The translations under genes and the position numbers were made by a program. 57,370 bases of DNA. Origin: Isohypsibius dastychi (lineage: Eukaryota; Tardigrada; Eutardigrada; Parachela; Isohypsibiidae). Positions within the stretch are counted from its first letter, which is position 1; each line of letters opens with the position of its first letter. The stretch spans positions 1 to 57,370 of the forward strand of contig JAQIWT010000024.1 in assembly GCA_034696485.1 (NCBI GenBank), read 5' to 3'. The notes beneath the pieces were generated by a model that did not search any database, had not been told where the DNA came from, and worked only from the letters and a program-made list of their open reading frames with translations. Shown here in pieces: positions 1 through 42,022 of the stretch.

Positions 1-606
1 TTGCCCCACCCCCCTAAAGGTCACCCCCCTGGCCCAAAAACTCAGCCTCCCGGCTGGACTAGTGCGTAGCGAAAAATCGAAAAAATGGATTTAGCCTCCC
101 GAAGTTTTGAACCTCGGCACACCACTGGCTGTCGTATGGTACTGTGTGTAGCTATGTAAATTCTGACTTTTAAACTTAATGTACTGGTTCCAGGAGAAAC
201 GGACCGAAACTGAGCGACATGTGGTGGAAAGTGGAATCTGAACACCTAGAAGTGGTTAGCACTGACAACCAGCAGCTAGCCTCATTCTATGGTAGCTTTG
301 CGAGTATCGTGGCAAACGCTGATTCGCTTATAAAAAGGAGGTCCTGAGGCGTGTGTATATCTTCATATTTGCAGTCACCAAATTAATCAATTCTTAATTC
401 TGAAAACAAAAAACTCTGTGACAACTCGTTTTCTCGGTATAAGAGTACGAGTGGGACACCTTAGTTTAGCTTGTTTTCGGACATTTCGATCATCCGCTCA
501 TGAAGAAAACAAACCATGTTGCTATGTGAAGACCACACCCTCATCATGACATCATGGTTTCTGCATTCGCTGGTTTCTAGAATGTTGTTACTCTGCTGTA
601 CAAGAT
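1..606. other. Left flank of giant element, no gene seen
   Basis: Low-complexity C-rich sequence at the start, then unique AT-rich DNA. I see no exon with homology or good coding character on either strand. This is the host sequence into which the 616-22181 element inserted; it would be contiguous with the sequence after 22190 in an empty site. Confidence 0.5.
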
Positions 607-615
607 ATGATATTA
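607..615. repeat. Target site duplication, left copy (ATGATATTA)
   Basis: Nine bases identical to 22182-22190. Each copy lies immediately outside the inverted repeats of the large element. Nine bp is the classic target duplication length of Mutator-like elements, and the element encodes a MULE transposase. Confidence 0.9.
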
Positions 616-655
616 GGTCAAGGCTTCCGAGGTGAGTTTTTAGGGGGCAGGACAT
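616..655 (+). repeat. Left terminal inverted repeat of giant MULE
   Basis: Pairs with the reverse complement of 22141-22181. The shared core includes GGCTTCCG, then GGTGAGTTTTT, then a G-run. Outer bases are G-G-T at this end and C-G-T at the other. Imperfect but collinear from the first base. Confidence 0.88.
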
Positions 656-734
656 AGGGGGCTTGGCCAATCTGTTAACCCCTCTTATGGCATAACGAAA
701 GAGCCGGTGCTCCTTCGTTGTTTCCGCCGTTTCA

Positions 735-1430
735 CTCTTGTTGCGCGAATCTGTGAATACGTGAACTTCATGAGTAACTCTTGTCAGTACTTAACTGACT
801 GACTGTAAACTACAGTAACTTGCTGACTTCTGTATGTATTATGCATCTGTCGCTCATCCAATTGGTGCTTCTCTTGGCTTACTATTCCTGTCACGTGAAT
901 TTGTGAAGATGTGAATATCACAATTTGCTTATGAACAGTGATACAGCTGACAGAACGAAAGCCGTAGCCCTTTCAAGTGCTTGAAAATTAAGTCGGACTG
1001 ACTGTGCATTGCACTGACACATTAATAAATTTTGACTACAAATTTTAGGCTTTTTAGATTGCCATCAGAATCAGTGAATACGTGAATACGTGAATACGTG
1101 TTCATAGTCATTTGTTCGCAGTCATTTGTTCGAGACATAGAGATAAATTATCTATACAGTAGTGGTCTATAAATCATCTTAGCTCTCTATACTCCTTTCC
1201 ATGTGAATCGGTGAATATGTGAACATCGCATTCAAGCACATGTCCACAGTCAGTTGTTGTCACGTAAATGTGTGAATATGTGAATATGTGAACATCGGTA
1301 TCAAGCACATGTCCACAGTTATTTGTTGTCACGTAAACTTGTGAATATGTGAATTTGTGAATTTTCAGCGCGGCTCACCGTATCCATGCGAATTCGTGAA
1401 TATGTGAATACACGAGCATACAGTTTAATA
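735..1430 (+). repeat. Left subterminal repeat array (9-bp gtgaatatg units)
   Basis: Short runs of a 9-bp unit (gtgaatacg/gtgaatatg) occur near 748, 893, 1074-1098, 1202, 1270 and 1340-1410, separated by unique DNA. A longer unit (tgaacatcg, then tcaagcacatgtccacagt, then ttgttgtcacgtaaa) occurs twice near 1218-1340. The same motif appears in reverse complement at 21710-22110. Likely transposase-binding sites. Confidence 0.75.
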
Positions 1431-2145
1431 AAGCCTTGGAAAGGGGGAAGAAGACTTGCGGCGTAGCTAATCTTGAACTAAACGAGGCCAGTGCAGAACT
1501 GGAGGTTTTCGCAATAGCATACGTTAGACTGATGTGTATGCGATATAGAAATAAAGCGGCGGAGCCTGTGAGCGGATATTCATAGTGCGACGTAAGTAAC
1601 AGTTTTGCGGTTAACGGGACGTGGTGGTTTTCTGAACAAAGACTGACAGTACCGAGCGGTTCTACCGTTCCATTCCGCCTAATTCGAGCTGAACGTTCTT
1701 GGTATCTATCAAATGCCAAGAACGAGCGACAGTATTCTTACAGTGAAGAATGACATGATGACGCTCCCGGAAATCTATTCTGACACACAGATGCTGCAAA
1801 GTCACCATTGTTTCGTGAACTGGGCCGATCACGCTTTGTCGAAAATAATTCGACCTGTTCAACCTTTTTTTCAGAAAAGATTGAACATTTGTGCGTGCGG
1901 CAATCAATTTTTACAGCTTATCATGAATCGTTCGACCAGCACAAGTAAGTTCAAAACTCAGCCATAAAAACTACGTTTATCGAAGATATGGAGGCTTGTC
2001 GCCTCAAAACAAAACCCCTCCCTCCGTGTTCAAGGATAAGGGACGTAGCTTAGTTTCAGTATGAAAACAACATCTTCTCACAATTCAACAAGAACAGAAT
2101 TTTTCATTGCTGATGACTGTTAATATACCTTTCAGTTTGCAGTTA
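1431..2145. other. Interval between subterminal repeats and helicase 3' end, no gene seen
   Basis: Short overlapping open frames on both strands show no recognisable motif and no supporting splice structure. Probably 3' UTR and spacer of the helicase gene. Confidence 0.4.
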
Positions 2146-2968
2146 TCAATCAAACAATTCTTCATCAGATAAATTGCATATTTCCTGAACGTCAGTTTGC
2201 TGGTCTGCCGGCTGATTCACGCTATTAGTCTCCGTGTTAACATATCCAAGATCATCTTCGAAGTCAATCGGCTCGCCATCTAAAAGCTCAAATTCTTGAG
2301 CGATATTGTCTTCATCACTCTCAATATCCATGTTGATACGTGATTCTTGATCAAACGATGAAAAGGTTGCCTCTGGTGAATGCAACCTATCAAGTCCAAA
2401 ACCTTCGCCGTTTCTGGAGTATGGATTTTGTGCAACAATCTTGTCCCATAAGTCTCTTAACTGCTTTTTCACGCTGGCCCGTATACGGAAACTTGATTCG
2501 TATCTATTCTTGTATTCAGCTGCTGTGATTTTGAATTTCGACAGCTTGTCCGCATTAAGACATGCTGGTAAACACTTGTAAAAAATCCAATATTTGGTCG
2601 GAATCTTTCCCTGACCATGATCAATTTCGATTTCTTTGAAAATACCATAGCCCATACTGGCTAGCTGAGTGGAAAGTCTTTTGAATTCGGCGGTTCCAGC
2701 AAATACTGGAAGTTTACGATATCCGAAACTTTCTGCAATCTGGCGTGGGTACAAGAATGGGCCGTCTATCAGTAAAAACCGATTCTCCGTGGATCTCCGA
2801 CTATCTGATCCATCAAAAACAGATGCGATACCTTCACTCGATGTGATGAACCGAATTGCACCTATCAAATGAACCTTTTCGTTACAGATGGACTGAATTG
2901 GATCAAACAAATATCCGTTCTGTATGAACTGATTTTTAATTGAGACACACATCTTCGATGTCAATCCG
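2146..2968 (-). CDS. DUF3987-type helicase gene, C-terminal exon
   Basis: The last coding exon of the element-borne helicase gene. Sense reading begins after a good acceptor (catatag) at 2968 and stays open to the stop at 2146, about 273 codons. The first two-thirds is mixed alpha/beta, consistent with the C-terminal part of DUF3987 proteins. The tail is strongly acidic (runs of D/E from about residue 205 on). The exon before it (4946-5807) has a canonical GTAAGA donor, but the phases do not match by one base, so a small exon or a different acceptor is missing. A 1.4-kb inverted-repeat transposon lies in the intron. Assignment to this gene rests on order, strand and context; the exon alone has no diagnostic motif. 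Confidence 0.55.
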
Positions 2969-3207
2969 CTATATGACATAAAAAATATTAAAACAAAATT
3001 AGTGATCAATCCAGATATTCCAATTCACTCGCTGGCCAATAGATTAAAAATCCCGTTTTTCAACCCACTCGTTTCCGATTAGAATGCCTCGTTAACATTA
3101 TCATGATATAAAATCGGTATCAGGTTCTTTTATTTATAAAATTGCAGGCTCTGGCACCCTGATCAGCTGTCCAGTTAGTCAACGAAAACCGCGATTATAT
3201 TGACTGC

Positions 3208-4658
3208 ATCTGCAGGCTAGTGCTTTAACACTGAACTTTGAAGTCTGAGTCTGAACTCTGAACCCTGAGTCGGAACTATGAAGTCTGAGTCTGAACTCTC
3301 AACTTTGAACTCTGAAAAACTGACAGGGTTGAAGCTGAAAACCCATATCAAAGTCACAAAGTGTTGTGCGTTTCGTACGCGCATGTAGCCGACAGAGTTG
3401 TCCCCTTGTCCTCTCTCCAAGAGGACACTTTCGTCGGTTGATACAGCCGACCAAGTTGTCCGCTTTTCTGAGGACAATTTCGGCGGACAGTTCGGAGGGA
3501 CAATTCAGGGCGACAATTTCGGGGGACAGTTCAGGGGGACAGTTTTGAGGCGGTACTTCTGATGGAACACTTTTGAGGGGACAGTTTGGTGGCTGCACTT
3601 TTGAAGAGACAATTCAATTCTGAGGTTAGTTCTGACGGGAAGATCCGAAGGAGACAATCTGGAATGACAGTTCCGTTCGACTAATTGTTCGACTGTGAAA
3701 CAGCAAGCATTCAAAAATGAAATGTCTTTATTGACAACTGGTGAAACTGTGCAAAAACAAAACAATACCGTCGAATTCTTACGATACAGATTACGAGAAT
3801 TAGCACATCCCGATTCTTAATAGATGACTTCGCGGACCAGAACAATTCGTCCCGCAGAAATTAATGAACCTCGGCAATGTTCGATATCTTTCTTTGTCAA
3901 TATTATGGGCTACGGGCTGACTCTCGTACCACTCTACGGGTACGGGCTGATTCTTCGGATTGTCTGCGAAAGCAGACAATCGATATCGTTTTGATTTGAT
4001 CAACGTGCCACTGCTGAGCACTTCACTGAACCACTTGCGCGACAATCGTTCAGAATCATAAGTAAATTCCTATGTTCACACAATCAGCAGCATAAGAAGC
4101 GGCTCTTATTCCACATATATTCGATACAAAAGGCTGTTGCTACATGCCAGCTACCAACAGATGTACATCCTCCCGTCTCTGGGACACACTGTCAAAAATG
4201 TAAATCGAGTCAGACTATCTCCTCCGAAATGACCTTTCCAAAACTGTCCCCTTCGACTTTTTCTCTCAGAACTGTCCCCCGAAATGTCCCCCATGATTTC
4301 CTCCTCCAAATCGTCCCCCAGCAAACTGTCTCCTTCGGAATTTCCCCTCAGAACTGACCCTTCCGAAATGTCCCCCATAATTTTCCCCTCTGAATCGTCC
4401 CCCTGAATTGTTCTTTCCTAATTGTCCCCTACGAACTGTCTCCCAAGACAGCGGTCAACTTGGTCGGTTGTTTCAGCCGACGAAAAGTCCTCTTGTCCGT
4501 GGGGAAAGGGGACACGGGATACAATCAGTTTTCTCGGTAGAGCGAGAAGAACCTGATCTTATGTGCAATGTTGCGTTATATCATCACACTCTGATATTTT
4601 GCAGACTTCCAGACTCAGAGTTTAGAGTTCAGTGTTAAAGCGCCAGCCGAATCTGCAG
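3208..4658. mobile_element. Nested inverted-repeat (fold-back) DNA element
   Basis: The ends read gcTTTAACACTGAACT inward at about 3222 and, in reverse complement, from about 4642. Similarity between the arms continues inward for several hundred bp (for example 3400-3480 against the complement of 4430-4510, around cagccgaccaagttg). The arms are rich in degenerate ggggacagtt-like units. An 8-bp direct repeat ATCTGCAG lies at 3208-3215 and 4651-4658, compatible with a hAT-type duplication, although the right end has three extra bases. It sits in an intron of the helicase gene. The open frames inside are repeat translations, not genes. Confidence 0.7.
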
Positions 4659-4835
4659 GATCAGCTGCGCAAGACAGCTGTTTTGGAGCTGCCTGATTGG
4701 TCCAAACCGCGAACAGCAATTTCAATTATTCTGTTAATTACTCAGCTTTACTATGTGATTCTCATCACCTATGTACACGTAAGTGTTGCTCGCTGGAATA
4801 TGAACAAGCTAACAATTCAATTCTGATTATGGCAT

Positions 4836-4898
4836 ATGGATTTTGTGCAGCAGTCTTGTTCCATAAATCTCATAAGTGCTTTCACACTGGCCCGTATG
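4836..4898 (-). repeat. Partial duplicate of helicase C-terminal exon
   Basis: About 65 bp (atggattttgtgcagcag onward to ctggcccgtat) repeat, with roughly 85 percent identity by eye, the exon segment at 2421-2490. It lies just beyond the nested inverted-repeat element, between helicase exons, and is too short to be functional. Confidence 0.7.
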
Positions 4899-4945
4899 TG
4901 AGATTTAGTTTTTTGGGATGTTTTGAACTTTAGTGATCTTCTTAC

Positions 4946-5807
4946 CTTGTACAGTTTCGACATCAATCTCCGGTGGGATATGGATTTCACCTGTATCCTT
5001 GAATGAGATGAGGCTGTACACCAAGAAATGGAAACTCTGTATTAAGTGTATGACCATCTCTTCAAGCTTGCCGAAACTCCTCTCAGTCGTTTCATCCTCG
5101 CTTTCCTCATCGGATGATTCAACTTTTATATTCAGTTTTTCAATCAACTCGTCTGAATACGTGAAAATGAGGTTGCGAGCTTCTCGTGTTGGCATCACAG
5201 TGAATAATTCAGGATGATCATTCAGATAGCCATATAATCGTAGAAAAGTTCCGATTCTGTCGAATTCTGCATGCTTGCCACAAGACGTTACGTGATTATA
5301 CCATTGTCTACTTCCGGAACTGGGCACGTCAATGAGGGTGTACAGCATTCGGTTTTTGAATCCATCGCCAAATACCCAAAGTTTTGATAACATCGCTGCA
5401 CCAACAGGGTGTAAGCCCCCAAATAAGTTCAGACAAGAATCACGGAGTTTTAGTGATACTGCTTTTTTGAAGCGTATTCTCAGCGGGCTGCCGCTCCACC
5501 CACCATTCACCATAGCCAGAGCCTGGGATCCATCTTGTTTAGTGGTAAAATTTTGTAGCCAAGCAAATATTTCGTCGGCAAAAATTGTCCCGTATCCGTT
5601 TGTCTCAACAAGGAAATCACGGAGAGCTATACGAACAAATACGTGATATAATGTACCATTATGATATTTCATCCCGAGATTCCCCGTAGCTAGATCTAGC
5701 GCTACAGAGGGAGGTGCATTTATTCGAGACCACTTTCTTCCATCAATTTTCTTTATTCTCAGAATTTTTTCTTCGAACCAATTTGTGTTCAGTATGACAG
5801 CCACCAC
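4946..5807 (-). CDS. DUF3987-type helicase gene, middle exon
   Basis: About 285 codons, open on the minus strand from near 5807 to a canonical donor (CAAG then GTAAGA) at 4946. In order: a segment matching the strand-turn of DUF3987 ATPases that ends in an acidic Walker-B-like FADEIFAWL (about residue 75), then LNLFGGLHPVGAAMLSKL, the conserved 'GG..P' sensor-type segment, then a GDGFKNRMLY segment typical of the domain's 'DGL..R' box. A linker rich in S/E/D follows (about residues 220-240). These follow in the right order and distance from the Walker A motif in the exon at 6744-7304. The 5' boundary is unresolved, because a mariner remnant directly abuts it at 5817. Confidence 0.7.
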
Positions 5808-5816
5808 CCTCTATCA

Positions 5817-6128
5817 TCAATCTAACACGATATGACCAAGATCGCAAAAATTAACTAATTTTTCTTGATCGAGATTCTCCCACACTGACGTCATCACATG
5901 CTTCAATCCTTCGATTGTTGTGGGATGACGATCAAATAATTCCCACTTAAACATCCCATTCACGCAGTAATCCATCGGCGCCAAGTCGGGTTTACGGTTT
6001 TTTCTCGCCACCCATAGCTCCGATCTGCTCCGATTTTTTTTCCTGAATAGCATGGCAAACTGATAACAACATTCTGCTCCCTGAGAGCATGCACAATTGC
6101 TTGGAAAAGTCTGTTCGATGCAGTGCAA
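5817..6128 (-). pseudogene. Tc1/mariner transposase C-terminal fragment
   Basis: Translation on the minus strand contains DLAPMDYCVNGMFKWELFDR, the mariner 'D-x-x-P-x-D-Y-x-x-W-x-x-L/F-K' region with the third catalytic aspartate, followed by the usual C-terminal helix region. Only the last quarter of a transposase is present and no terminal repeats were resolved. It lies between two helicase exons, so either it inserted into that intron or it has damaged the gene. Confidence 0.7.
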
Positions 6129-6338
6129 TGACGGATCCTTTCACTTCTGGATCAAGTTTTCGACCCATTTCATGGCAGATAAATTTGAACTAAATTTCGC
6201 TGAAAACTATGATTCAAAGTACCGTTAGATATATTGGGATAAGAAAGAACTTAACAAAGCAAGCCCGCGAAAAGAAAGTGGCCTCGAATAAATGCCCCGC
6301 CCTTCTGTACATACTGTAGATGTGAGCAGCAAAGTTCT

Positions 6339-6374
6339 CATGGGGCTTGTAACTGACGGGTTACAAGCCCCATG
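6339..6374. repeat. Perfect 15-bp hairpin
   Basis: Arms catggggcttgtaac at 6339-6353 and its exact complement at 6360-6374, with a 6-base loop. It lies in the non-coding interval between helicase exons. One of four perfect short hairpins in the window. Confidence 0.9.
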
Positions 6375-6743
6375 TACAGTGGCAGTTTGAGAACGAACAC
6401 CCTCTCATTTTGTCCCGCGTGGGCGGCGGGTAAATCAGGTTTGACCGTGGACAGGGATGTCGTGCCTCAGTTCGAACCCTTTTGAACGGCTTCTAAGCAG
6501 ATTTGGACTACAGTCACGGGGGTTTAGCCTGCGATCGAAGACTAAATCCTCTGGGTGAAGTTGTGAGAATGGCGAAAAGTTGTGTGAGGTTGTTAAATTG
6601 AAACTGATCGAGAGTTTCACATGCAATGAAAGCATAAGGATGGAATCATAATATAACCTTTTTGACCATCTATTTGAGATTGAGAATCCAGAATCCCCCT
6701 TTCCCCTCCTTTTAAAAAAAGCATGATCGGTGAGTTTGTTTAC

Positions 6744-7304
6744 CTGCAGCAGTGCCGGCATTGTCCTTTATTGTACAGTTGTGAAGATCTTCGATCCGTT
6801 CGATAATATCCGTGCAGAATAATTTGTTTGAGGGAGATTTTCCGAAACCAGCAGCCGAAATTGTCACCATGAACAGCGAAGGAACCGTGGTGTATTCGAC
6901 CTTTGGACCCATTTTGAATCCAACTTTCCCAGCCAGTATTGACGCAGTTGTAGTGAGGAGACCAGCTAAAACAGCTGATGGTTTTGATCGACAGGAAACT
7001 GCCCAAAAATTGATTGCTTCCGCAACTCTCGGCGGAAGGTAGTCTTCTATGAGCTGTGGATACCGATTGCATGCACGTACGAACATTTTGTTGGCGCTTT
7101 TTTCCGTAACTGTCGAATACTTGTTTTGGGGATTAGATTTTAAAAACATTTTCAAGACAGTCTCGAAATCGGCATTAATGTGACGCATTCGAATCGCTAA
7201 TTGTTGCTGGTGGTTTTCCCTGTTGTCGATCCGACAGTCATGCGCAAATTTGCAAGGTGTGGCAAGTGAGTTCGAATCAAAACAAAAGATGCCAGTGTTC
7301 CACT
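6744..7304 (-). CDS. DUF3987-type helicase/ATPase gene, N-terminal exon (Walker A)
   Basis: Open on the minus strand from an acceptor near 7304 to a donor at 6744 (GCTGCAG then GTAAAC). The methionine at 7188 is internal; the frame is open upstream and includes a Cys-rich stretch (CKFAHDC). The exon shows the typical DUF3987 opening: PPRVAEAINFWAVS, a helical AVLAGLLTTTASILAGKV segment, then VTISAAGFGKSPSNK, the P-loop (GxGKS) of this superfamily. DUF3987 proteins are predicted superfamily-3-like helicase/ATPases, usually next to or fused with primases in phages and plasmids. A primase-polymerase gene lies upstream in the same element, which fits a replicative primase-helicase pair. First exon(s) not located. 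Confidence 0.72.
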
Positions 7305-8275
7305 GTTGAATTCACTTCAGTTGAATTCAGTCATAAGTAGACTGAATGGTGACAGTAGGAATTTATGAATAAAAGATCATTTGAAAAATAACCACAAACT
7401 GTACCTTTAACGATATTTTCAGCCATAATTTCCGAGAGTGATTAAAAAATTATCTAATGAAAATTCTACAGCGGAAGCCTTTTATTACTGCACAAAAACG
7501 AAAACGGAATATTCACAGTTTATCAAAATCGCCCGTTGCTATATGGAAATGTGGGTGGTCAATATAGCTCCGAAAAAATTGTTCGACATCTGACTGACCC
7601 ATAGTGATCCATATTCACAGGACACAGTTTCCGAACTGGTCTAAACTTGAATCCGAAACCAAATGCAAGCAATCAGCGACCATTGCACCTCAGTTAGTTT
7701 TGTTTACGGCTGTTCTGGACGCAGTTGTGTCGCTGTATTTCGGGCTATCTTGGATAGCCGGCCAATCAGGTGTCACACTATTGTTCTTGTTAATCTTGTG
7801 GGTGTCAATGGCGCCGCACTGATGTCATCTGTTAGATCCTGAACCAGAATGTCGAAACAGTGCAAAGTATTGTCGCCAAAATTTCTGTGCAGCACCACTG
7901 GGTGCACGTGTTTGTTTATGAAACCTGAACTGCTCGTGCTGTGTACCAGCGAAGTCATCTTCAAGCCTCATTTTGATCCGCAACGAATATTGGGGTCAAG
8001 ATGGGACGTCGTGCAAAAAGCGGACTCAAGTGACCAACGATTTTGAGAGCTATAGCAGTCAGTTTCTTAGGTATAGCAGTAGCGTATCGAGGGTTGCTTT
8101 ATGCGGCCATTTTACGAAATTTTGACCGTGTTCAAACTTTCCTGATTCAGTTCCGAATTCCGATGCTTAACGGCTACTCGAGTGTACTAAAACTGTACCA
8201 CAACACATCCTGAAGAATACGTGTCGCATAACTGAAATGTTTTCAGTTTATTTTCTCAGAACTGTAACAATGAGA
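7305..8275. other. Interval between OB-fold gene and helicase gene
   Basis: No confident gene. On the minus strand, 7980-8045 reads LKIVGHLSPLFARRPIL after a possible acceptor, weakly like the start of RPA1 DBD-B; it could be a further exon of the OB-fold gene. Other short frames are unsupported. Confidence 0.3.
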
Positions 8276-8582
8276 TCAAATTCTTTCTACTCGAAAGTTG
8301 AAGTTCGAATTATTGACAGTTGTATCTTTGTTAAAACGCAGTTCATATGCCGAAGTGAAGCCAGAATTGTAAGTTGAATCTGCGAGTTTGATGAGTGGGT
8401 TTTTGATACATAACTTCGCACCATTCTGAAATTTCTCCGCAAAATCATCCACCTGTGCAAAAATTGCACCTTGCATGGTTCCGGTAACATCCTTACATGT
8501 GAAGAATAGACCATTCCCTTCCCGACCACCGTTGGTCCAGGGTTTGTTCCTCTGACTTAAGATCTCGACGTTCAATTCGATC
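8276..8582 (-). CDS. RPA1-like OB-fold ssDNA-binding protein, exon 5
   Basis: Sense reading from the acceptor at 8582. The product strongly resembles DNA-binding domain A of replication protein A large subunit: RNKPWTNGGREGNGLFF (strand L12 and the W/G-rich turn), an acidic DVTGTMQGAIFAQVDDFAEKF segment matching the RPA1 'DESGEIRATAFNEQVDKF' core, then AYELRFNKDTTV matching the end of DBD-A. Expected role: binding single-stranded DNA made during replication of the element. The upstream exon joins in phase (GG plus G). The reading ends at 8276, but a possible donor just before the stop suggests more exons. A hAT-type MITE lies in the preceding intron. Confidence 0.75.
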
Positions 8583-8618
8583 CTGTTACAAAGGAATAAT
8601 TTCAAGATGGACTGAGAT

Positions 8619-9138
8619 GTTCACACCAGAGGTGGGCAGTTTTCAGAAACGAGCAGTGAGTTGCGTTTGAGTTTTAAGTAAGCTACGAGTTGAGTTTTGA
8701 GCTGAGTTTTTTCCGAAAATCCGAGTTTTGAGTTGAGTTTTTTGAGTCTTGAAAAAACCGAGTTTTTGAGAGTTTTTGTTTAATTCAATGTCAATCAAGT
8801 GCATTCAAGTTTCGAAAGGGATCAGGAATGTGTTCAAATAAATTGCAGTCAATATGTGTCGAATGAACCATCCGAAACATCACTCTCATTCAAAAATTAC
8901 AAGAGCTCGTGAAGCTGATAAAACCATAAATTTTCAGCACACAGTGGTGATTTTTCCGAAAAACTCGAGTTTTGGAAGTTTTTTGAGTTGCGGTTGAGTT
9001 TTTCTGATTCAGATTTTTTTTCGAGTTGAGTTTTGTAGAGACTGAGTTCGAGTTTGTGCTGGAAAAAAACTCAAAAAACTATAAAAACTCAAAAAACTCA
9101 GGCGCGCTGGAAAAAAACTGCCCAGCTCTGGTTCACAC
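8619..9138. mobile_element. hAT-type MITE (504 bp) with perfect 8-bp TSD
   Basis: The element spans 8627-9130. The left end CAGAGGTGGGCAG pairs with the right end CTGCCCAGCTCTG, a classic hAT terminus. The 8-bp duplication GTTCACAC is exact at 8619-8626 and 9131-9138. The interior is made of degenerate gagttttgagt units on the left and their complement on the right. It inserted in a 54-bp intron of the OB-fold gene without changing coding sequence; the donor (GTGCGT) and acceptor remain. Confidence 0.93.
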
Positions 9139-9148
9139 TGAGACGCAC

Positions 9149-9304
9149 CCTTTCATGTCCAGTTCTAGTTCAAAGATTGTGACCTTCTTGACAGACGCTG
9201 ATCCAACAACCAAGCATGTCGCCTCCCCGAATCGGCGGTCAACTGTTTCTTGTAGGAGTTCGTGTTCCAAAAGTACTTCACAGCCCTGAATGACCACAAT
9301 AGTC
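9149..9304 (-). CDS. OB-fold (RPA1-like) protein, exon 4
   Basis: 52 codons between an acceptor (tttacag) at 9304 and a donor (GG then GTGCGT) at 9149. It reads TIVVIQGCEVLLEHEL and ends VTIFELELDMKG. With exon 3 it forms a second small beta-barrel-like segment (RVTG..., then IVVIQGCEVL), typical of OB-folds. Phases with exon 3 (2 plus 1) and exon 5 (2 plus 1) both match, which strongly supports the gene model. Confidence 0.68.
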
Positions 9305-9592
9305 CTGTAAATATTTTGTACGGGTTATCTCACATGATCAGCTGTTGTGTGAAGTTCTTAACAATTATCGGCAAATTCCAATTACTAACAAAATCATCAA
9401 CAAATTCCGCTCGATCCAGTCTGCTAAATATTTAAACCCGATCGTTTGATCTACAGTTTGATGTATAGCCCTTGATTTAAGACTCCAACAAAAACATAGT
9501 AAATAGCGGTCGAACTGAAGGTCATTTCGAGAAAAGTCTTCGGAAAATTTTTCATATTATGCATTCACGATGCTTTTCATACTACGACATAC

Positions 9593-9689
9593 CCATTGGG
9601 ACCAGGACGCGTGGTGTGGCCAGTAACTCTCACTAAACCGGATCGGAAATTCGTGAGTTGTTGCTCCACTTTACGAGCTAATTCGCAGT
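9593..9689 (-). CDS. OB-fold (RPA1-like) protein, exon 3
   Basis: Acceptor ttatag at 9689, donor AATGG then GTATGT at 9593. It reads LARKVEQQLTNFRSGLVRVT, then GHTTRPGPNG. The phase to exon 4 matches exactly. The phase from exon 2 fits only if a weaker GTCC donor three to four bases downstream is used, so that junction is uncertain. Confidence 0.55.
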
Positions 9690-9907
9690 CTATAACAATT
9701 CAGTTTTTATGCTGAGCATCGAGACTACTGAATTCTTTCACCTGTTGTCAAATACTTGCTGTCGCGAACCAACATAACCGTACGTTCAAACGTTTTGCGT
9801 TTTGCGATGACATATAAAACAAATGGTCCCGTCTTACCAGAAAATGCCTCCTAAAAGATCACATGAACTTTCACTCACGGCTCACCCATAATTGTCGTTG
9901 GACATAC

Positions 9908-10291
9908 CTTCAGATAAGGTTTGTTGTCCAACAACGTAACCTTGCTCATGAGTTGAACATCACTGCAGGAAGTCTTGCCTGTGCTGGTGCTAGGCTGAAC
10001 TAAGTCGTCGTTGCAGCGACTCATCTTTGTTGATGTTCTGCCAAGTTGCGCAGAATCGATCGACAAAGTTGACTTCCCAGTGGCCAGTTTCTTTGCGTTC
10101 ATAGCAGGGGTTGGAATTATCTCCGACACTTCTGATTCGGCGTCAGAGCTGTCAATATCAGTTCGTCGGCGTTTTGTATTTGAGGGGCCCATAACTTCAT
10201 CTTCACTATCTGATGTTTTGATTTCCACTTGGGTCACAACCTCGTCTTCCTCATCCGAATGTACAAGCTGAATAGCTGGCTCTTCGAGCAC
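9908..10291 (-). CDS. OB-fold (RPA1-like) protein, acidic Ser-rich exon 2
   Basis: About 128 codons from an acceptor (ttttattag) at 10291 to a canonical donor (CTGAAG then GTATGT) at 9908. There is no ATG at the start: it begins GTG directly after the acceptor, so it is an internal exon. Composition: acidic HSDEEDE and TSDSEDE patches, a KRRR basic cluster (likely nuclear localisation), a Ser/Thr-rich region, then QLMSKVTLLDNKPYL. Low-complexity linker between an N-terminal coiled coil and the OB-folds. No known domain. Confidence 0.5.
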
Positions 10292-10609
10292 CTAATAAAA
10301 AAAGGTGGTGAAGTGAAATCATTGGTGATGTTAGCGAAAGGTTCATGTTGGGGAATCCGCTGCGCTTCCATTACCAAGGCGGGAAAATACATGGAATCGT
10401 TATCCATGAGAAAGACTTGTCTTGATGTTGGGAAGAATTACCCAGTCACCCCCTCCCCCCCCCCCACCTGGTTGAAAGCATATATCATAGTTACTTGTGT
10501 GTATTTAAATAGAGAATTAGATAAAAAACGATACGTGAGTAACATGAAACTAATTGTAATGGCAACGTTTGTGAGTGACTGTATGAGCAAATTCTTCGCA
10601 TAACACAGC

Positions 10610-11000
10610 GCTATGCAGCTGACAATGTTCGCAGGCCTCATATAGGAGAAACACCGTTTCTTGTTGCAAATCCAGAACCACTTGGAAGCCAGCAATCACA
10701 TCATTTGCTATTTGGTAGCGCGTCAGTCATGACTCAGGGATTCCCATTCTCTCGAGCAGCATTTAAAAAAGTGACCATCATGTTTCTCTTCGGAAACCTA
10801 AGCCGGCAAAGAACACGATGTTTAATTTTGAACAGTTTGCAAAGTTACATCAGAGCAGCATCATAGTTGCACTGGATAACCATGGTTTTGCCCGACAAGT
10901 AACATGATTGTTCAACGTATTTGCCGTCATGTTTTGTACCGAATTGTTTTCGGCGAGAAACTTGATGGCCGTTTGTTTGCATACTGTTGATATTCAGTGC
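10610..11000. repeat. Decayed copy related to the fold-back element at 19664-21235
   Basis: The stretch from caggcctcatataggag through tgcaaatccagaacc, gtcagtcatg, gtgaccatcatgtttctc and cggcaaagaacacgatg matches, with many changes, 19895-20110 (ggcctcgtgtaaggg..., tgcaaatccagaatcac, gtcagacgtgg, gggaccatcatgattctc). No termini found. Confidence 0.6.
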
Positions 11001-11787
11001 ATTTCACGAGAAGATGAAATCCCAGAACCATGTCTGACGTAGTACAGTATCAATAACTCCGAGCGTCCCCCGGCCAGATGCTCGTGGGACAGATTGCCGA
11101 TTCGTCTTAGTTTGGTCTTAGCATGGAAATAGATTTCTGGTTATGTGATTACATAAATTAAGAATGATTGTCCAGGTTTCCAAGTCACCGGTTCTCAAAA
11201 AGGACCCGCATACATCGTCCTCACTTGAGCTTTGAAATTTTCTCAAAATATAAAACTGTGTCGAATCGAAAATTCAAAAGCTCCAGCCTCGGTGAAGTTT
11301 TTTTATATTTTTTCTATCGTATTTTTGTTGGACTTCTTGAGAACGAACTGACAGAGGAATTCAAAAGAGAGTCCTTTCATAATTCTACTTCGATGAACCG
11401 TAGATTGAAGAGTGAGTATTTCTAAAATTATTACACGGTCAGGAAGCATTCAACTCGTTCAAACGTCAGATAATGTCTCTGGCCGACCATGGTTCTAGTC
11501 TTAGCTTACATTTGATGCATGCAGAATTGACGTAGAGAGACTGTGAATACAGTACTATATTATCTCCAATGACCTTTTTTCCCTGCACCATTTGGAAAAC
11601 AGATGAGATAAGGGTGCAATACCGAATCTTCGTGAACAAAATTGGCTGTAAGGAGATTCGTCCAATTTAATGTATGCAGAACTACTTGGTGCGTCGTAAG
11701 GTGCTCAAAATCAGCATCATGAAGTTCAGCTCTACTCTTCTGGAACCTGTGTTCAAGGTCACAATCCTGAACTGGGGGGGGGGGGGG

Positions 11788-11907
11788 AACACGCCTCTAT
11801 CGATGTTAGCGTAGTGGAACAAGCTCATCAAGACCGGCTTTGCTAACACGTATTAAGTAGACCTAGTACTCTACGTGCTGGATTTAGACCATTTTCAAAA
11901 CCTACAC
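11788..11907 (+). repeat. 120-bp direct repeat, copy 1
   Basis: From aacacgcctctatcgatg to aaaacctacac. Identical to 12085-12204 except one base (A versus G in gctaacAcgtatt). Copies are offset by 297 bp. Copy 1 directly follows a 14-base G-run. Recent segmental duplication. Confidence 0.93.
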
Positions 11908-12084
11908 TCACAATTAAAACAGCATTAAGTACTTGTGCGTTGAAGATTTCGTTGCATTACGGATGTTTTTGTCCTGTTTACGCCGGCTGGTCATATGGCT
12001 TTGTTTACTAGCTGCCTATGATAAAGTCTGGGTGGAAACGGCAATAAAGAGGATAGCTAACACCAAAAACTTTTCGTGTAGGCC

Positions 12085-12204
12085 AACACGCCTCTATCGA
12101 TGTTAGCGTAGTGGAACAAGCTCATCAAGACCGGCTTTGCTAACGCGTATTAAGTAGACCTAGTACTCTACGTGCTGGATTTAGACCATTTTCAAAACCT
12201 ACAC
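12085..12204 (+). repeat. 120-bp direct repeat, copy 2
   Basis: Second copy of the 11788-11907 unit, in the same orientation, separated by about 177 bp of unique sequence. Confidence 0.93.
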
Positions 12205-12645
12205 ACAGCTGTGTGGCGCAAGATGAAAATGATATCCGGCAGAAAAGTGACGCCTTGAATCATGGTATCATGCTTCCAGCCGGCTTTAAACATACAGAGC
12301 TGTTAACCTCCCACTACCAAGGGCAACCAAACCAAATTAGCTTGACTTTCCATAGATTGAGGAAAACTACCTGAACATGCGATACAGCTGGATGTTTATC
12401 GATCGATCACGTAATCATTTGATTCTTTGCGCCTAACATGCACCCCAGCCATTTCTCAAATACCGAGCGGGGTGGGCCATATGAGGTAAAAATATACTGA
12501 AATCGAAACATTGGACAAATGTTGTGTTTTCAAATCTTAATCACGCCAACTACTTAATTCATTCTCCATTCTTTTACGATGAATGTGACCTTATTTCATA
12601 CTGAAGCGAAGTTACATATCGGCGTTGCCGACCAGTAGGACTCAC

Positions 12646-12918
12646 TTTAGATTTCAGCTGCTTTTCCAGTTCAGCAACTTTTTGCATGAGTTGAGCGTTG
12701 GTTTTCTTTTTTGAATTTTGAGTGAGCTCCCCACAAACTTTGGTTGGAATTTTCTTCGATTTCGTATCATCAACTTCAATCTTCGAACTTCCCGCTGTCA
12801 CTGGATCCATTTCTGGATATTGCTTGGACGATTTTGAGCGATCGATAACCTCTTTTGATGATGAACTTGGTCCTTTTGACGAAGCAAGGTCTCCTTTAGC
12901 TACACGCGTTCTGGGCAT
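12646..12918 (-). CDS. OB-fold (RPA1-like) protein, candidate exon 1
   Basis: ATG at 12918 (MPRTRVAKGDL), 91 codons to a canonical donor (TCTAAA then GTGAGT) at 12646. Lys/Ser-rich, with a short coiled-coil-like TNAQLMQKVAELEKQL at the end. The QLMQKVAEL motif echoes QLMSKVTLL in exon 2. Read straight through, the frame would end at 12574 with a 114-aa protein, so a separate small gene is possible. Joining to exon 2 is inferred from matching phase 0. Confidence 0.45.
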
Positions 12919-13769
12919 GTTTCCGTCCTGAACTAAAAGAACCGCATGCGCGAATTTCAGCCAGACCTCTGCAGTGCCTCATACAGTCGTTCTCTGAGAA
13001 GTATCAACAATTCCATTGATCTTTCAGACAGATTCGAAGAATCAGTCTGAATGACCAAAGAAATCGTCAATGAGAGTCCATCTTCAATTAGAAGATGGAG
13101 TCGGTAGAGTCTGAGGTCTGGTTGATTCACGGACAATATTCTGCGACTTTTTCTGAAATGATAATGTAACTGAAAGAGCGTCAGAGGTACAGAGTCAAAT
13201 TATGTCTCTCTCTCTGTTTAAGAACGGTAAGTTGATTCGACTGCATAGCAACGAGTCAGGACGCGTGCTGTGTTGGTTTGAATTCGAATCATGCGAATAC
13301 CAAGAGGTACAAGAACTGCATCAGATAATGGATGTTGGTTCGATTGTTTCCGAATTGCAATTCTCCTGAGTATTGACAAAAAACGTCTTCTTGCGGTCTG
13401 AGTTAAGAAGTCGAGCAAAACAAAACTCACAAATCATCGAAGAAAACCAGTCTATTTTTTTCCCCACAAAATTGTTACAGAAAAGGGGGTGTTACCAACA
13501 ATCAATGGAAACAGAGTAGGCCGACAAAGTTTCATAGAACCTTTGCCGAGTGGTCTTTTTGCCCATAGGAAAAATTCAAAATTTTGCTGGTTTATTGTCT
13601 TCGAGGTTATTTTGCCCACCCACGAAACCAATATGAATGACAAACTTTTGAATTTGGTCAGCCTGTTTCGAATCAAATTGAAAGAACCAAAAATCATATT
13701 CTCGCAAAATTCCAAACATGTATAATAAGCCAACCTCCAACCTTATAAGCAAACCTCGGTACAAAAGAC
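12919..13769. other. Spacer between PrimPol and OB-fold gene
   Basis: Short open frames on both strands without motifs or convincing splice sites. Probably promoter of the downstream gene and 3' UTR of PrimPol. Confidence 0.35.
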
Positions 13770-15056
13770 TCACACATTTGGTACCCAGGTGGTCACACGT
13801 TTTTGGGCACTTTTCGTGACTTTTCTACACCTCCGGGGAAAGGCACGAAAAGTGCCTTTCCCCGGAGGTGTACATTGTAGAAAAGTCTGTAAATCTGTTT
13901 CTCCAGCCACCCACCGATTCACCACAATCTCTGACCCAGCACGACGACCGATAGCACACTTACACGAGTGGAGTATACTTGCGAGCCCCGAATCAATTTT
14001 GACAAACTTGGGTTGCTTATTCGCCTTGCAGCTCACATTAAAACACTTCTGTTCCACTTTTCGATTTTGCTTGTTGAAGACAAAATAAATCTGGTTGGAG
14101 TGGTGTATCCGGTTAGCGAACTCGCACTTTTGTGATTTTCGATACTTGAAAATGATAATCCCTGCTGCTGCTATAACTCTCATGTAACCAATATTTGCGT
14201 CAAAATTGAATGTAGTTTTACAAATTGCAGTGGCAGGTCCAATCTCACTACACATCTTTTTCTGCGAAATTCGCGGTGTTGCATTCATCCTGATAGAAGC
14301 ACATATGAGCGTTTCGCAAAACAGCTCGAACTCTGAATAGTTCTGGTAGGCTGGTGACGTTAAGTTATGGAGTACGAGTTTTTGTGGTTTTCCGAATTTG
14401 GTGCAGCCATAAAGACGGAATTGTTGGTTTTTATTATATGGGGCTGGATCAATGATTGATTTTTTCGATCCATTTTGCCATACTTTCAGAGACTCGCATT
14501 TAGATATATGTGTGATGATTGACTTTATTTCCAGTAGACTTTCTTTTCTGAAATCGGGATAAATAATATGATAGCTGCTTTTTGAAGACGACGTTGACGA
14601 TAGAACGATAAGTCGCTGAATATTCAAATACTGGTAGACCTTCTTGATGATCCGGTTCAAAAGTTCGATGTCATCTGTGTGAATGTTGTCTTGAAGATTG
14701 TACTCAATGTCAAAATAAAGTCGGTACATTGAGTTCTCCGTCAGGACCTCGTAGAAATGTGCCGCTGCCGAAGCCTGATGTATCATTTCAAAAATCTGTC
14801 GAACATTGCAGGCAACAAATTTCCGCTTCCTGTTGGCGTTGAATTCATAGGCGAACACTCGTAATTCGCTTTGAGATGAACGATCGACGTATTCCAAAGC
14901 ATCTCGTTGATTGTTAAACCAGCATCCTAGCCGCGGAAAGCTCATCAGTTCCATCAATTTACAAGAACTGCGCACACTGCACGCTAGGACGGCAGCAGTT
15001 TTATGAGGAAATACACATACAGTATCGTGAAGTAGCTTCTTGGCACTTCGCAACAA
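13770..15056 (-). CDS. PrimPol-family primase-polymerase (archaeo-eukaryotic primase)
   Basis: 428 aa, no intron, smaller than cellular PrimPol (about 560). The N-terminal CWFNNQRDALEYV and RVFAYEF, then YEVLTENSMYRLYFDIEYN, align with the start of the PrimPol core. Catalytic motif I is D116-x-E118 (YFDIEY), motif II S161-x-H163 (SSYHIIY), motif III D203 (IIDPAPY), followed by NQQFRLYGCTKFGK, the PrimPol 'N+.FR+Y.SSK.GK' signature. The zinc knuckle C311, H318, C338, C343 has exactly the spacing of human PrimPol C419/H426/C446/C451. It makes primers and extends or bypasses on single-stranded DNA; here it probably primes replication of the element together with the DUF3987 helicase. The last ~40 residues lie in a perfect hairpin and differ from any PrimPol tail I know, so the true 3' end may have been altered. 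Start codon not certain. Confidence 0.9.
   Translation of the reverse strand: MLRSAKKLLHDTVCVFPHKTAAVLACSVRSSCKLMELMSFPRLGCWFNNQRDALEYVDRSSQSELRVFAYEFNANRKRKFVACNVRQIFEMIHQASAAAHFYEVLTENSMYRLYFDIEYNLQDNIHTDDIELLNRIIKKVYQYLNIQRLIVLSSTSSSKSSYHIIYPDFRKESLLEIKSIITHISKCESLKVWQNGSKKSIIDPAPYNKNQQFRLYGCTKFGKPQKLVLHNLTSPAYQNYSEFELFCETLICASIRMNATPRISQKKMCSEIGPATAICKTTFNFDANIGYMRVIAAAGIIIFKYRKSQKCEFANRIHHSNQIYFVFNKQNRKVEQKCFNVSCKANKQPKFVKIDSGLASILHSCKCAIGRRAGSEIVVNRWVAGETDLQTFLQCTPPGKGTFRAFPRRCRKVTKSAQKRVTTWVPNV
13827..13871. repeat. Perfect 20-bp hairpin in the PrimPol 3' end
   Basis: Arms at 13827-13846 (acacctccggggaaaggcac) and 13852-13871 with a 5-base loop. Pairing resumes outside after a 6-7 base insertion (acttttct against agaaaagt). 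It lies within the last 40 codons of the PrimPol frame and looks like a snap-back (template-switch) event. Confidence 0.93.
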
Positions 15057-15129
15057 CTGGCTACAGTGACAAATATTCCCAGTAAACCAGTCTAGAAAAC
15101 CGGTCTCACTAGATGCCTACCTGCGGCAG

Positions 15130-15330
15130 GCATATTGCCCCCCCCCCCCCTTACAACAGAACAGCGTATCGTGCGGCACGTGGCAAATCGAACCCCGAGT
15201 CGCGACGTAGCGCATCGTTCGTGCCGTAACGTATCGAACCTGACGTAGCAGATCGTATCTGACGTAGCGTATCGCGCGTGACCTAACGTATCGTACGGGA
15301 CGTGACGTATTGTACGTGACGTAGTACCTT
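15130..15330. repeat. C-run and degenerate acgtagcgtatcg tandem repeat
   Basis: A 14-base C-run near 15136-15149 is followed by about nine degenerate units of some 19-20 bp containing (a)cgtagcgtatcgtacgtg. CpG-rich and unlike neighbouring sequence. It lies upstream of PrimPol, between it and the MULE gene. Confidence 0.7.
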
Positions 15331-15503
15331 CGGGGGGAAAGGAGGCGGGGGAAATTGTTTTTCTATAAAGTTCTAAATTGTATTCTGCGTTACTTTTTAC
15401 CACATTATGTAGCAATACAGATGTTGTCAGAGCATAAAGTTGTCCACAGTCTTTACATGAGCAAATCTCAATAGCTGTTTGGTGTAGTCAGTCAACTAGT
15501 ATT

Positions 15504-15929
15504 TTATCTTAAGTCTGTTGAGCACCCCCAGTTTTTCCTGTACGTGCAGCGCAGAGCCTCGATTTTTGAAAAAAGTTCTGGTGGAAGAATAAAACAGCGA
15601 TTTTTCAGAAGGGGCCAAACTTTCGGACTCTTCCTTTCACTTCGCGATCGATAACTTAACCAATATTGTATCTCGGTTTCCCAAACTTTTTTCCAAAGCT
15701 TTTTATGCGTGTCATCATTTGAAGTTGTTTTCGTCCGGTACATACGCTTTCTAAATACGCTAGATTTTTCGAAAGTCAAGAAAGATGACTTGCAAAAATT
15801 CAAAATGACCGCTCTCGGCAGTATTTTGTTTCCCGCCGAAAAACTCTGAAAATTCTTTTTCTTCTGTTTTATCCAAGTCAAAATGCGTTGATCTATTCGA
15901 AAATAAATGTTGAGACCTTGAGTGTGCAT
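15504..15929 (-). CDS. Hypothetical basic 141-aa protein
   Basis: Open minus-strand frame between PrimPol and transposase, in the same direction as both. Lys/Arg-rich, with aromatic residues and no recognised motif, signal or membrane segment. No exon support. It may be a chance frame or an exon; kept because length, strand and position fit an additional element gene. Confidence 0.25.
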   Translation of the reverse strand: MHTQGLNIYFRIDQRILTWIKQKKKNFQSFSAGNKILPRAVILNFCKSSFLTFEKSSVFRKRMYRTKTTSNDDTHKKLWKKVWETEIQYWLSYRSRSERKSPKVWPLLKNRCFILPPELFSKIEALRCTYRKNWGCSTDLR

Positions 15930-16294
15930 TGCGTAAGCCGGAGTGATTTAATTTTCAGCGTGGACAACTTGTGAACAACTTTGCGTAGACATGCTCTGTA
16001 TCTTTCTAGCAGAATGGCCAAGAAAATTCTTACTTCAAAGGTGACACAAGTGGAAGCATCGTGCCGAGCTATGGAACAGCTCATCATTTTCGTAGGTGAA
16101 ATTGTAATTTCGAATTCGACTGCAAAATACTCCCGAGAAATAATATTTAATATTATCCAAGAGTCCAAGATATTTCAGACAGTTCATCAGCTTGTTTATT
16201 TTCACCGAACAAATTGGCATACAATTTGCAATGTTGAATGAACCATCTCAAAGCAGCATCATCTGACGATGGTTGTAGCAATAAAGCGATCGTT

Positions 16295-17813
16295 TTATTT
16301 ATTAAATTTTTTATGACGTGAACCGTTATTTGGACGTCCTTTGGGTAGAACCCCGCGAACTGCATTCAATCTGAATGCAGGCATCTCATGACTGATTTTC
16401 GTATGTCTATCGTTTGCAGATCCTAATATGCGCAGATCAGAGGTGACACTCAAATTCGCTTGCTCCGTGAATTCATCGTCTCTTGTTTTGATATTCTCCG
16501 AATCTGTTTGAGGAACAGATATTTCCGGGACCACCCCTGCTGAGAGATACGCGTTCAATGTTTCCAAGCGTTGCTGAACAGTTCCGAATTGGGATCCTCC
16601 AAACGACGTTGCGTTCGAGGCGATGGTTTTGCAAACCTCTAGAGAAGCAGCAAACCGTTGGCCAAGCTTGGAATATAGCGGCTGTTTAGGAAAATCAGGG
16701 CAAACAGTTTCCTTCAACATTCCTTCGTTAGAATCAGAACTGTCCATCTGTTCTTCACAGTATTCCGTCAAGTCTTCATCATTAGATCCAAGTAAGGCAG
16801 CCTTCATTATGCAGAGTGGCACATCTGAGTGATCATCTGTGGCTGTACGTCGAAACCACTTTTCGAGGTTGTCTCGAATATCGAACAAGGGTAAATCCAT
16901 TGATTCACGCACTTTCATGATATGTCTGCATGTCAGGCCAAAGGAACAATTTATGTAGCAAGAACAGTCGAATGAGTCTCTGAATAAGAACACCACATGC
17001 GAGGTTCCATTGTCAGCTTCTACATCCCAATCAACATCCGAAGATCTGGAAACTCTTAATTTCTGCTGAACAAATATTTCACATTGCTTGTTCACGATCG
17101 CGCATGCAAACTTCGTGAGAGACGCACCAGCTTCAGAAGTGACGTCAGGTAACGGTGAGCCACGGACAATCAGAATTTTCCCCTCATTCACATAATCGTG
17201 ATAGTTTCCCAACATTAATTTGTAATTCAGCATTTCTAATATGATCTGGACACATTCGCCGAGGTGATACTTCCGTCCTGAAAATGACCCATTCCCGCGC
17301 AATGCCACTTTCAGGAAAAGAAAAAATCTCTCTATTCTGTTCGTTGTACGATTGCCAAACGTAAGCATGTGAGAACGGAAAGCCATGGCCCACTGGTGTT
17401 TGATTGGTTCCCAATTTTTTTCGAAATATTCTGTGAATTCATCTGAGATCATGTCTCGCATTTCTTGCTGATGGACCCAGTACTGGTCCTGATTCATGGC
17501 AAACACAACCTTTCTGAACGATGCCAGTACTTCTTGCTTCTCATCGCAGCTGCACTTTTCTTTAGCGATTCTGGTCTTAACCGCCTTAAGAACGTGAAAC
17601 GCGCACAGTAACACCTCCGCACCGGCAAACTTGGTTTCCAGAACTGCGAGCTGAGTAAAATCTTTATCCACGAAGATTGCGTTCACAAATTTCCAAGTCT
17701 TGTTTATCTCTTTGAATTTATCAAAAAATGCAGAGAGAACTGGGGTGGTTTCTCTTTTCATGAAACCCAAAGCGTATGGTACCCCAAAACCATTAGGATC
17801 TTGGCCTAGAATA
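16295..17813 (-). CDS. MULE transposase, exon 2 (catalytic core C-terminal part and SWIM finger)
   Basis: About 505 codons after an acceptor (ctttgcag) at 17813. In order: second catalytic aspartate in AIFVDKDFTQ, then LLCAFHVLKAVK (the MULE C-x2-H), an alpha-helical insert, FGNRTTNRIERFF with the catalytic glutamate, and a SWIM zinc finger CSCYINCSFGLTCRHIMKVR (C-x-C-xn-C-x-H). The C-terminal ~200 residues are low-complexity, ending in a basic tail. This architecture is the ZSWIM1/3-like MULE type found in animals. The frame is fully open, so the transposase may be functional. Confidence 0.9.
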
Positions 17814-17864
17814 CTGCAAAGAAGCTTGTAATTCACTTCAAATGGGATATCGATAAACACTTAC

Positions 17865-18631
17865 CAGTATAAACAAAAGTTTTCTACGTTGATCCGGTAC
17901 GTGCTATCGACGAACAGCACCTCTCCATTTTGCAGAAAACCGTCTTTCATTCCACCAGTCTGTATGTACAACAACTCCAACTGGCCGTTTACTGGGTCTG
18001 TTTTCATCCACACTGTTGACCGTGCATCATCCTGGACAACTTTGCCTAATATCTCGTTCAGGTGGTCTTCAAGTGATGAACCATCCCGTTCACGATTCTT
18101 CATACGTAATGACATATTGTATACGTCCTTGGTTATAATCGTTCCAAGCTTTCCGGCCTTTGACCGGCATTCGTTGAGGTGGCAAACGATCTTTCTAGCC
18201 GATGTCCCAAGCCGAACCAGCTGCAAGCATTCTTCTTTCTCATTTGAGGTCATGGCTCGATTCTCTGGGTAAAATGCTGCAACGTGTGCCCCAACCGAAT
18301 GCCCTCTATGACAATCAGAATCCATCAATTCAACCACGAACATTTGACATCCGCGGAGCTTAAGGACAAGAACAACCGGACATCCAGTTTTCACAGTGGT
18401 CTGAAATTTATGCCCATGTAGATTCACCAACCGCTGTTTTTCTCTGTATCTCCCGCCGTGCTTGCACGTCATTCTCAGCGAACTATTCCAGAATAAATCA
18501 TGAAAAGGGTGCTCTTTCGAAGTTCGTGGTTGCCCAGATGGGATGACAAATAGTTGGTTCGTGGAAATTCCAAATGCCCGAACCGCTTCAAGGGCTTCGC
18601 GCTGAGAACAAAACGAGTCTCCGACTTTCAT
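17865..18631 (-). CDS. MULE transposase, exon 1 (N-terminal domain and first catalytic Asp)
   Basis: Start chosen at the ATG at 18631 (MKVGDSFCSQREALEAVR), which opens a FAR1/GCM-like zinc-binding DNA-binding region; an in-frame upstream start at 18733 adds a non-conserved Cys-rich leader. The exon ends near EVLFVDSTYRI, with the first catalytic aspartate, at a canonical donor (TACTG then GTAAGT) at 17865. The 51-bp intron is in phase with exon 2 (2 plus 1). The protein of about 760 aa catalyses excision and insertion at 9-bp staggered sites, matching the duplication at the element ends. Confidence 0.88.
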
Positions 18632-41934: not shown

Positions 41935-42022
41935 AAAACCAAAAATAGTGACGTTAAATCAGAGTCGTCCTTGAAATTAAATCACGGTACTAAAGATTTC
42001 ATGAATAAAATCACTGAAAAAT

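Follow-up and report, generated by a model that had tools for sequence, protein, structure and literature searches.

The usual view of cut-and-paste transposons is that they multiply by way of the replication and repair systems of the host. Maverick/Polinton elements follow the logic of combining a transposase or integrase with replication enzymes of their own between inverted repeats. Here we describe an element built on that same logic, which occupies positions 616-22181 (21,566 bp) of a 57,370-nt contig (C24, hereafter the window) from the tardigrade Isohypsibius dastychi. A sequence-only reading of the window had proposed that four genes on one strand between shared termini, encoding a PrimPol-type primase, an RPA-like protein, a DUF3987 ATPase and the transposase of a Mutator-like element (MULE), form a self-replicating transposon. 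We found that the four genes do lie together, on the minus strand, inside a single transposon flanked by a 9-bp target duplication that matches at 9/9 positions. We judge it rather likely that this is a Mutator-like DNA transposon carrying a conserved three-gene replication module that copies the element's own DNA.

The element differs from each described system in its combination of genes. Mavericks have a family B polymerase, a retroviral-type (rve) integrase and a capsid, none of which was called in any of the 32 open reading frames (ORFs) of at least 90 amino acids that lie wholly within the element (Pfam matches listed up to E 0.1); in their place are PrimPol, RPA and a putative MCM-like ATPase. 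Helitrons use a rolling-circle RepHel protein and make no target duplication, unlike this element, which has a DDE transposase and 9-bp duplications. According to the sections of PMC6431247 available to us, some Helitrons carry genes for RPA and a helicase, and Teratorn joins a cut-and-paste transposase to replication genes that include a primase; Teratorn, however, is 180 kb long with about 90 other genes, whereas here there are four genes and no virion gene was recognised. The bacterial and archaeal mobile elements PrimQH and All3500, as excerpted from PMC5862659, likewise pair an archaeo-eukaryotic primase with a DUF3987 ATPase, a predicted helicase, but as one fused protein; here the two are separate genes, accompanied by RPA and MULE.

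Known MULEs, such as Muta1 of Aedes and the SWIM-bearing clades, share with this element a MULE/ZSWIM-kind DDE transposase, terminal inverted repeats and 8-11-bp target duplications (extracts of PMC6446971 and PMC5225508), and mosquito MULEs also have short subterminal tandem repeats (PMC5225508, same extract). Arthropod MULEs are given as 1.4-10.0 kb long in the portion of PMC13359780 that we drew on, whereas the present family measures 14.8-21.6 kb and adds primase, RPA and DUF3987. The extra MULE ORFs named in the source sections at hand are mudrB, mutB, vanB and vanC, and neither main text, that of PMC6446971 or that of PMC13359780, contains the word primase or the word helicase. In the open-access literature, a search that left Repbase and most subscription journals outside, no eukaryotic transposon with PrimPol, RPA and DUF3987 was among the matches listed, and we regard the novelty of the element as provisional.

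The borders of the element were found by aligning the outer flanks of three copies. The sequence-only reading gave no coordinates for terminal repeats; its interval, 2146-18631, is bounded by the stop codon of DUF3987 and the start codon of the MULE transposase, and the termini lie outside it. The terminal inverted repeats share GKCTTCCGGGGWGAG at both ends, but each side has its own conserved outermost six bases, unlike those of the other side; the right end common to the three compared copies reads inward as CGTAGTGKCTTCCKGGG. Within the window, the octamer pair GTGAANNNGTGAA, on either strand, is confined to two subterminal arrays. The features of the element are as follows.

607-615: target site duplication, left copy, ATGATATTA, identical at 9/9 positions to 22182-22190
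616-636, plus strand: left terminus, GGTCAAGKCTTCCGRGG..., common to C413, C162 and others
753-1408, plus strand: left subterminal octamer array, (GTGAANNN)n, with 12 forward pairs of GTGAANNNGTGAA
2146-2861, minus strand: DUF3987 exon 3 (C-terminal part), GT-AG splice model, with similar ORFs on 9 other contigs
4946-5626, minus strand: DUF3987 exon 2 (Walker B, DEIF), PF13148 E 6.3e-8 on ORF 4905-5810, above the cut-off
5702-6309: unrelated interspersed repeat in DUF3987 intron 1, blastn 70-88% to C202, C1002 and C426
6744-7149, minus strand: DUF3987 exon 1 (Walker A, AAGFGKSP), PF13148 E 2.5e-5 on ORF 6712-7311 (24.1 bits, under the cut-off of 27); its start codon is one of several candidates
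8276-8620, minus strand: RPA70-like exon with the oligonucleotide/oligosaccharide-binding (OB) fold of DNA-binding domain A (DBD-A), by profile match; PF01336 sub-threshold
9136-10291, minus strand: probable RPA upstream exons (ORFs 9136-9324, 9580-9699, 9728-9850 and 9878-10291), splice sites uncertain
13773-14954, minus strand: PrimPol-type primase (ORF 13770-15116); 14954 is the first Met of the aligned region and the coding 3' end is uncertain
16295-17813, minus strand: MULE transposase exon 2 (DDE core, CxC...CxH), PF21056 and PF10551, splice model
17865-18631, minus strand: MULE transposase exon 1, PF21056 E 6.2e-6, just under the cut-off
19659-21240: nested inverted-repeat block between the MULE transposase and the right end, arms of 57-234 nt that are 81-89% complementary; probably an inserted hairpin repeat
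21717-22104, minus strand: right subterminal octamer array, 9 reverse pairs, inverted relative to the left array
22161-22181, minus strand: right terminus, CGTAGTGKCTTCCGGGG... in inward reading, 15 genome matches versus 0 for the control
22182-22190: target site duplication, right copy, 9/9 match to the left copy

Related ends are present elsewhere in the 30.4-Mb assembly, in which all genome-wide comparisons were made. With up to 3 mismatches, the 21-base terminal motifs gave 24 left and 15 right matches, of which one site on C36 is common to the two sets; the reversed-pattern controls gave 0 and 0. Because 13-base end motifs at 1 mismatch showed no clear excess over control (left 82 vs 72; right 47 vs 49), the 21-base motif alone is informative. 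Six elements have both ends: those of C24 (21,566 bp), C162 (15,263 bp), C413 (14,805 bp), C13 (3,652 bp), C1451 (2,685 bp) and C648 (542 bp). Four of the six have a recognisable target duplication, matching at 9/9 positions in C24, C413 (GAGAAAATA) and C13 and at 8/9 in C162 (GAAAACAAA/AAAAACAAA), while C648 (5/9) and C1451 (4/9) are without one; among random AT-rich 9-mer pairs of the window, 9/9 is reached at 1.65e-4 and at least 8/9 at 1.1e-3. In C413 the left end holds 3 forward octamer pairs and the right end 1 reverse pair; C162 has 3 forward pairs on its left and 2 reverse pairs on its right, plus one stray within the DUF3987 gene. All three long paired elements carry all four genes. 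The short ones (C13 3229-6880, C1451 7152-9836 and C648 12559-13100) gave no match to primase, MULE or DUF3987 in the genome searches, and C13, to judge from its ends and 9/9 duplication, is a non-autonomous relative of the element.

Transcription on the minus strand would read MULE (18631-16295), primase (about 14954-13773), RPA-like (about 10291-8276) and DUF3987 (about 7149-2146), and no disabling stop interrupts the modelled parts of the four genes. Among the 32 element ORFs, only primase, MULE and DUF3987 reach a curated Pfam cut-off, the RPA exon being sub-threshold. The MULE transposase exceeds the cut-offs of two families, PF21056 (E 2.2e-13) and PF10551 (E 8.2e-10). Since a 51-nt GT-AG intron (GTAAGT...TTGCAG) joins both transposase ORFs into a spliced frame of 761 amino acids, the stop codon between them is intronic. 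The domain identities that the sequence-only reading had named (PF13148, PrimPol, RPA70 DBD-A and MULE PF10551) were all recovered, that of RPA by a profile of 7 copies, but its SWIM domain (PF04434) was not: Pfam made no such call at E 0.1, although a CxC...CxH stretch is visible in the transposase. The MULE profile found 5 relatives in the protein database, one of them ZSWIM1-like and from Paramacrobiotus metropolitanus, which is also a tardigrade. Neither this profile nor that of DUF3987 matched a PDB sequence.

The primase reaches PF03121 at E 7e-5 (23.1 bits, cut-off 21), and a profile of 7 copies matches human PrimPol at E 1.4e-20, with PrimPol as the sole PDB matches. Its catalytic residues (DxE, SxH, QQ.R and K) are invariant in 8/8 copies and the C-terminal zinc-site columns (C, H, C, C) in 7/7. 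In the protein database, where for each of these profiles the 8000 candidates with the most shared words were scored, the primase profile found two remote proteins (best E 1.4e-6, 30% identity, with PF02399) and the DUF3987 profile found no relatives. The RPA exon of the window alone matches the OB fold of PF01336 below threshold (E 4.7e-4, 20.5 bits, cut-off 27), and the 7-copy profile matches RPA70 DBD-A in 1ynx (E 4.8e-7) and 1jmc (E 3.4e-5). Similar exons were found as ORFs on 6 other contigs, and on C1366 and C835 by way of C460 and C603. Each upstream RPA ORF has a counterpart at the corresponding place in C413; in addition, 9136-9324 recurs in C45 and C162, and 9728-9850 in C45, C162 and C603.

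The three DUF3987 exons splice into a single open frame. Weak matches of the DUF3987 search on C1002, C426 and C202 were rejected, being the interspersed repeat of intron 1 rather than DUF3987. In PHROGs, phrog_2373, a helicase family, matches the DUF3987 ORFs of C45 (E 6.1e-7) and C162 (E 4.1e-6); the window exon reaches E 0.097 only, and the C1366 ORF has no match. A structural model of DUF3987, itself of moderate confidence, matches the ATPase-domain fold of the MCM helicase.

The primase, RPA-like and DUF3987 genes, which we call the kit, are found together beyond the paired elements. All 8 contigs with a primase match also have DUF3987 (8/8) and an RPA ORF (8/8), and the order MULE-primase-RPA-DUF3987, on one strand, is the same in C24, C413, C162 and C636. 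The left terminus follows DUF3987 in C636, where it is the one terminus found, and in C1444. The transposase found on the 8 contigs is a MULE in 4, IS1595-like in 1 and absent from our matches in 3 (C45, C603 and C460). MULE matches in turn fall on at least 12 contigs, the counts of these MULE-type searches being lower bounds. The full kit accompanies the MULE on four of them, C110 combines its MULE with a primase relic (49 amino acids, E 2e-5), C1199 has a MULE without kit, and six are fragments or contig-end cases. A tyrosine-recombinase-like ORF (C1199 4429-5214; weak PF00589, E 0.031, below cut-off) adjoins the kit-less MULE. The sequence-only reading had named independent variation of replication genes and transposase as evidence against it; all 3 long paired elements carry the four genes, but across copies the transposase does vary, and the MULE also occurs alone.

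Three of these contigs deserve comment. In C45, bases 1-17000 of 46,890 contain no right end and no MULE, nor was the contig's own left terminus found there; left-end octamers are present at 1429-2243. We dropped C45 as a MULE-free lineage, as a copy that keeps its left-end octamers and apparently lacks its right part fits truncation. Upstream of this copy is a Harbinger-type transposase ORF (14484-16588; PF13359, E 1.4e-13), probably a separate insertion. The whole of C460 (19,777 bases) has a kit and no MULE or IS1595 match, and 8 non-kit ORFs run through Pfam gave 1 match, a piece of a long terminal repeat (LTR)-type integrase. C603 ends 163 nt beyond its primase ORF. No terminus was found in the searched pieces of C460 and C603, which we assign to a third kit lineage.

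The primase-RPA-DUF3987 module descends as a unit. Across 7 contigs, pairwise distances of primase, RPA and DUF3987 exons correlate (Mantel r 0.909-0.925), the observed values being reached in 2-6 of 5040 label permutations. Synonymous divergence (dS) is 1.6-3.1 or undefined, so that synonymous sites are near saturation, and the kit exons of C162 and C45 match at 68-82% of DNA positions. The ratio of nonsynonymous (dN) to synonymous divergence is 0.019-0.139 in the 7 computable comparisons (6 of DUF3987 exons, 1 of primase, printed only for pairs with dN <0.5), values made rough by the high dS; for RPA and MULE, the nonsynonymous proportion pN is below its synonymous counterpart pS in every pair printed. 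Because the gene lineages are old and the target duplications intact, the insertions are younger than the lineages, which is the pattern that an element surviving by transposition should show.

A divergent lineage of the kit adjoins a transposase of another kind. On C1366 there are a primase (413-1153 + 1903-2424), RPA (2676-3290), an ISXO2/IS1595-like transposase (6769-7731) and, on the opposite strand, DUF3987 (9885-7771). On C835, an IS1595-like transposase (1562-1717 + 2245-2865), RPA (3013-3330) and DUF3987 (6118-8184) share one strand, and no primase match was found. The profile PF12762 (DDE_Tnp_IS1595) matches at E 2.4e-14 in C1366 and E 3.9e-18 in C835, and these account for 2 of its 3 matches in the assembly. 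When the C1366 and C835 pieces were compared with themselves, no pair of terminal repeats was found. A perfect fold-back of 111 bp at the start of C1366 looks like an assembly artefact. The arrangement may mean that the kit is a stable core and the transposase exchangeable. We go further only tentatively, at somewhat less than even confidence, in proposing an undescribed class of eukaryotic elements in which a stable core, a minimal replisome of eukaryotic style (PrimPol, an RPA70-like protein and an MCM-like ATPase), joined at least two unrelated cut-and-paste transposases (MULE and IS1595/Merlin), the transposase being an exchangeable integration part and the kit copying the element.

We propose the following mechanism for the window element. 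The MULE transposase would bind the ends, probably at the octamer arrays, excise the element and insert it with a 9-bp duplication, a step suggested by the ends and target duplications. The DUF3987 protein would act as a ring helicase of the MCM type, with the exposed strand covered by the RPA-like protein, and the PrimPol-like enzyme would lay primers and perhaps extend them, leaving bulk synthesis to host polymerases. Element DNA might in this way be copied extrachromosomally after excision, or around transposition, and copy number would rise without sole reliance on host repair of the donor site. The borders, the 9-bp duplication, the kept catalytic residues and the co-descent of the module are read from the DNA itself; that the kit copies the element we infer from protein identity, selection and association.

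Several observations weigh against this proposal. No DNA polymerase was called in the 32/32 element ORFs. Given that C13 has the same ends and a 9/9 duplication but no match to the kit genes, the kit is not needed in cis for movement, and the self-replication proposed by the sequence-only reading is less secure than its grouping of the four genes into one transposon. C1199 has a MULE with no primase or DUF3987 match despite 5.4 kb beyond it, and at the stringency used 17/24 left and 9/15 right ends are partnerless. The Walker A motif is altered in C460 (GNNGAAKS) and C603 (GSNGCSKS). The structural model of DUF3987 represents the C1366 copy rather than that of the window, with a mean predicted local distance difference test (pLDDT) score of 62.9 and 158/512 residues below 50, and among the 50 Foldseek matches listed the TM-scores, taken by query length, span 0.16-0.37.

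The strongest competing explanation is that the kit serves in fork repair or restart, either where excision leaves a gap or in replication-coupled transposition, and regenerates the donor copy without autonomous copying. Animal PrimPol and RPA act in repriming at stalled forks, the missing polymerase call is consistent with such a role, and short kit-less elements such as C13 still move, as they should if kit and transposase work in trans. An MCM-like ring ATPase, however, exceeds the needs of gap repair, as do the octamer arrays near the two ends, which may be iteron-like, and we consider this explanation unlikely. Large DNA viruses often have UL52/PrimPol-type primases and helicases, and the element could also be a remnant or relative of a DNA virus whose replication genes joined a MULE transposase. 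Fusions of this kind occur, as Teratorn illustrates by joining a herpesvirus to piggyBac (PMC6431247, in the part consulted). Yet none of the 32 element ORFs was assigned to a capsid or packaging family, the ORFs common to other copies are, besides short repeat-like matches, the four genes only, and IMG/VR viral contigs yielded no confirmed relative for the primase, DUF3987 or MULE profiles, which makes a viral origin improbable.

Least probable of all, and in our view very unlikely, is chance capture of the genes, or a host gene cluster that happens to lie beside a MULE. Pack-MULEs do take up host gene fragments (PMC6431247, same part), the copies are few and as divergent as C162 and C45, and the transposase differs among them, a variation that the sequence-only reading had itself taken as a sign of capture. 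Against this, insertions that arose independently at different sites carry the same four genes with order, strand and termini unchanged, and common ends refute the idea for C24, C413 and C162. Moreover, the three kit genes keep one another's company and diverge in step, and synonymous sites are near saturation while the target duplications are still 9/9, 9/9 and 8/9. We favour a transposon that carries its own replication module.

Outside the element, the other genes look animal, encoding an astacin with low-density lipoprotein (LDL)-receptor repeats and PAN, ankyrin and leucine-rich repeat proteins. Two further features of the window are as follows.

50934-52103: ORF for the rve integrase of an LTR-type retroelement, with the p58 C-terminal domain
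39786-47354: a pair of inverted arms, each of 330 nt and 94% complementary to the other, enclosing 6.9 kb with a reverse transcriptase ORF at 42653-43516, an arrangement unusual for an LTR element

If the proposed reading is true, a MULE with a long-kept primase, single-stranded DNA-binding protein and MCM-like motor would represent a further route to self-replication, beside the family B polymerase of Mavericks and the rolling circle of Helitrons. The IS1595-linked lineage makes the swapping of modules between a replication core and an integrase directly testable, and the match between DUF3987 and the MCM fold provides a way into a large ATPase family that is still uncharacterised.

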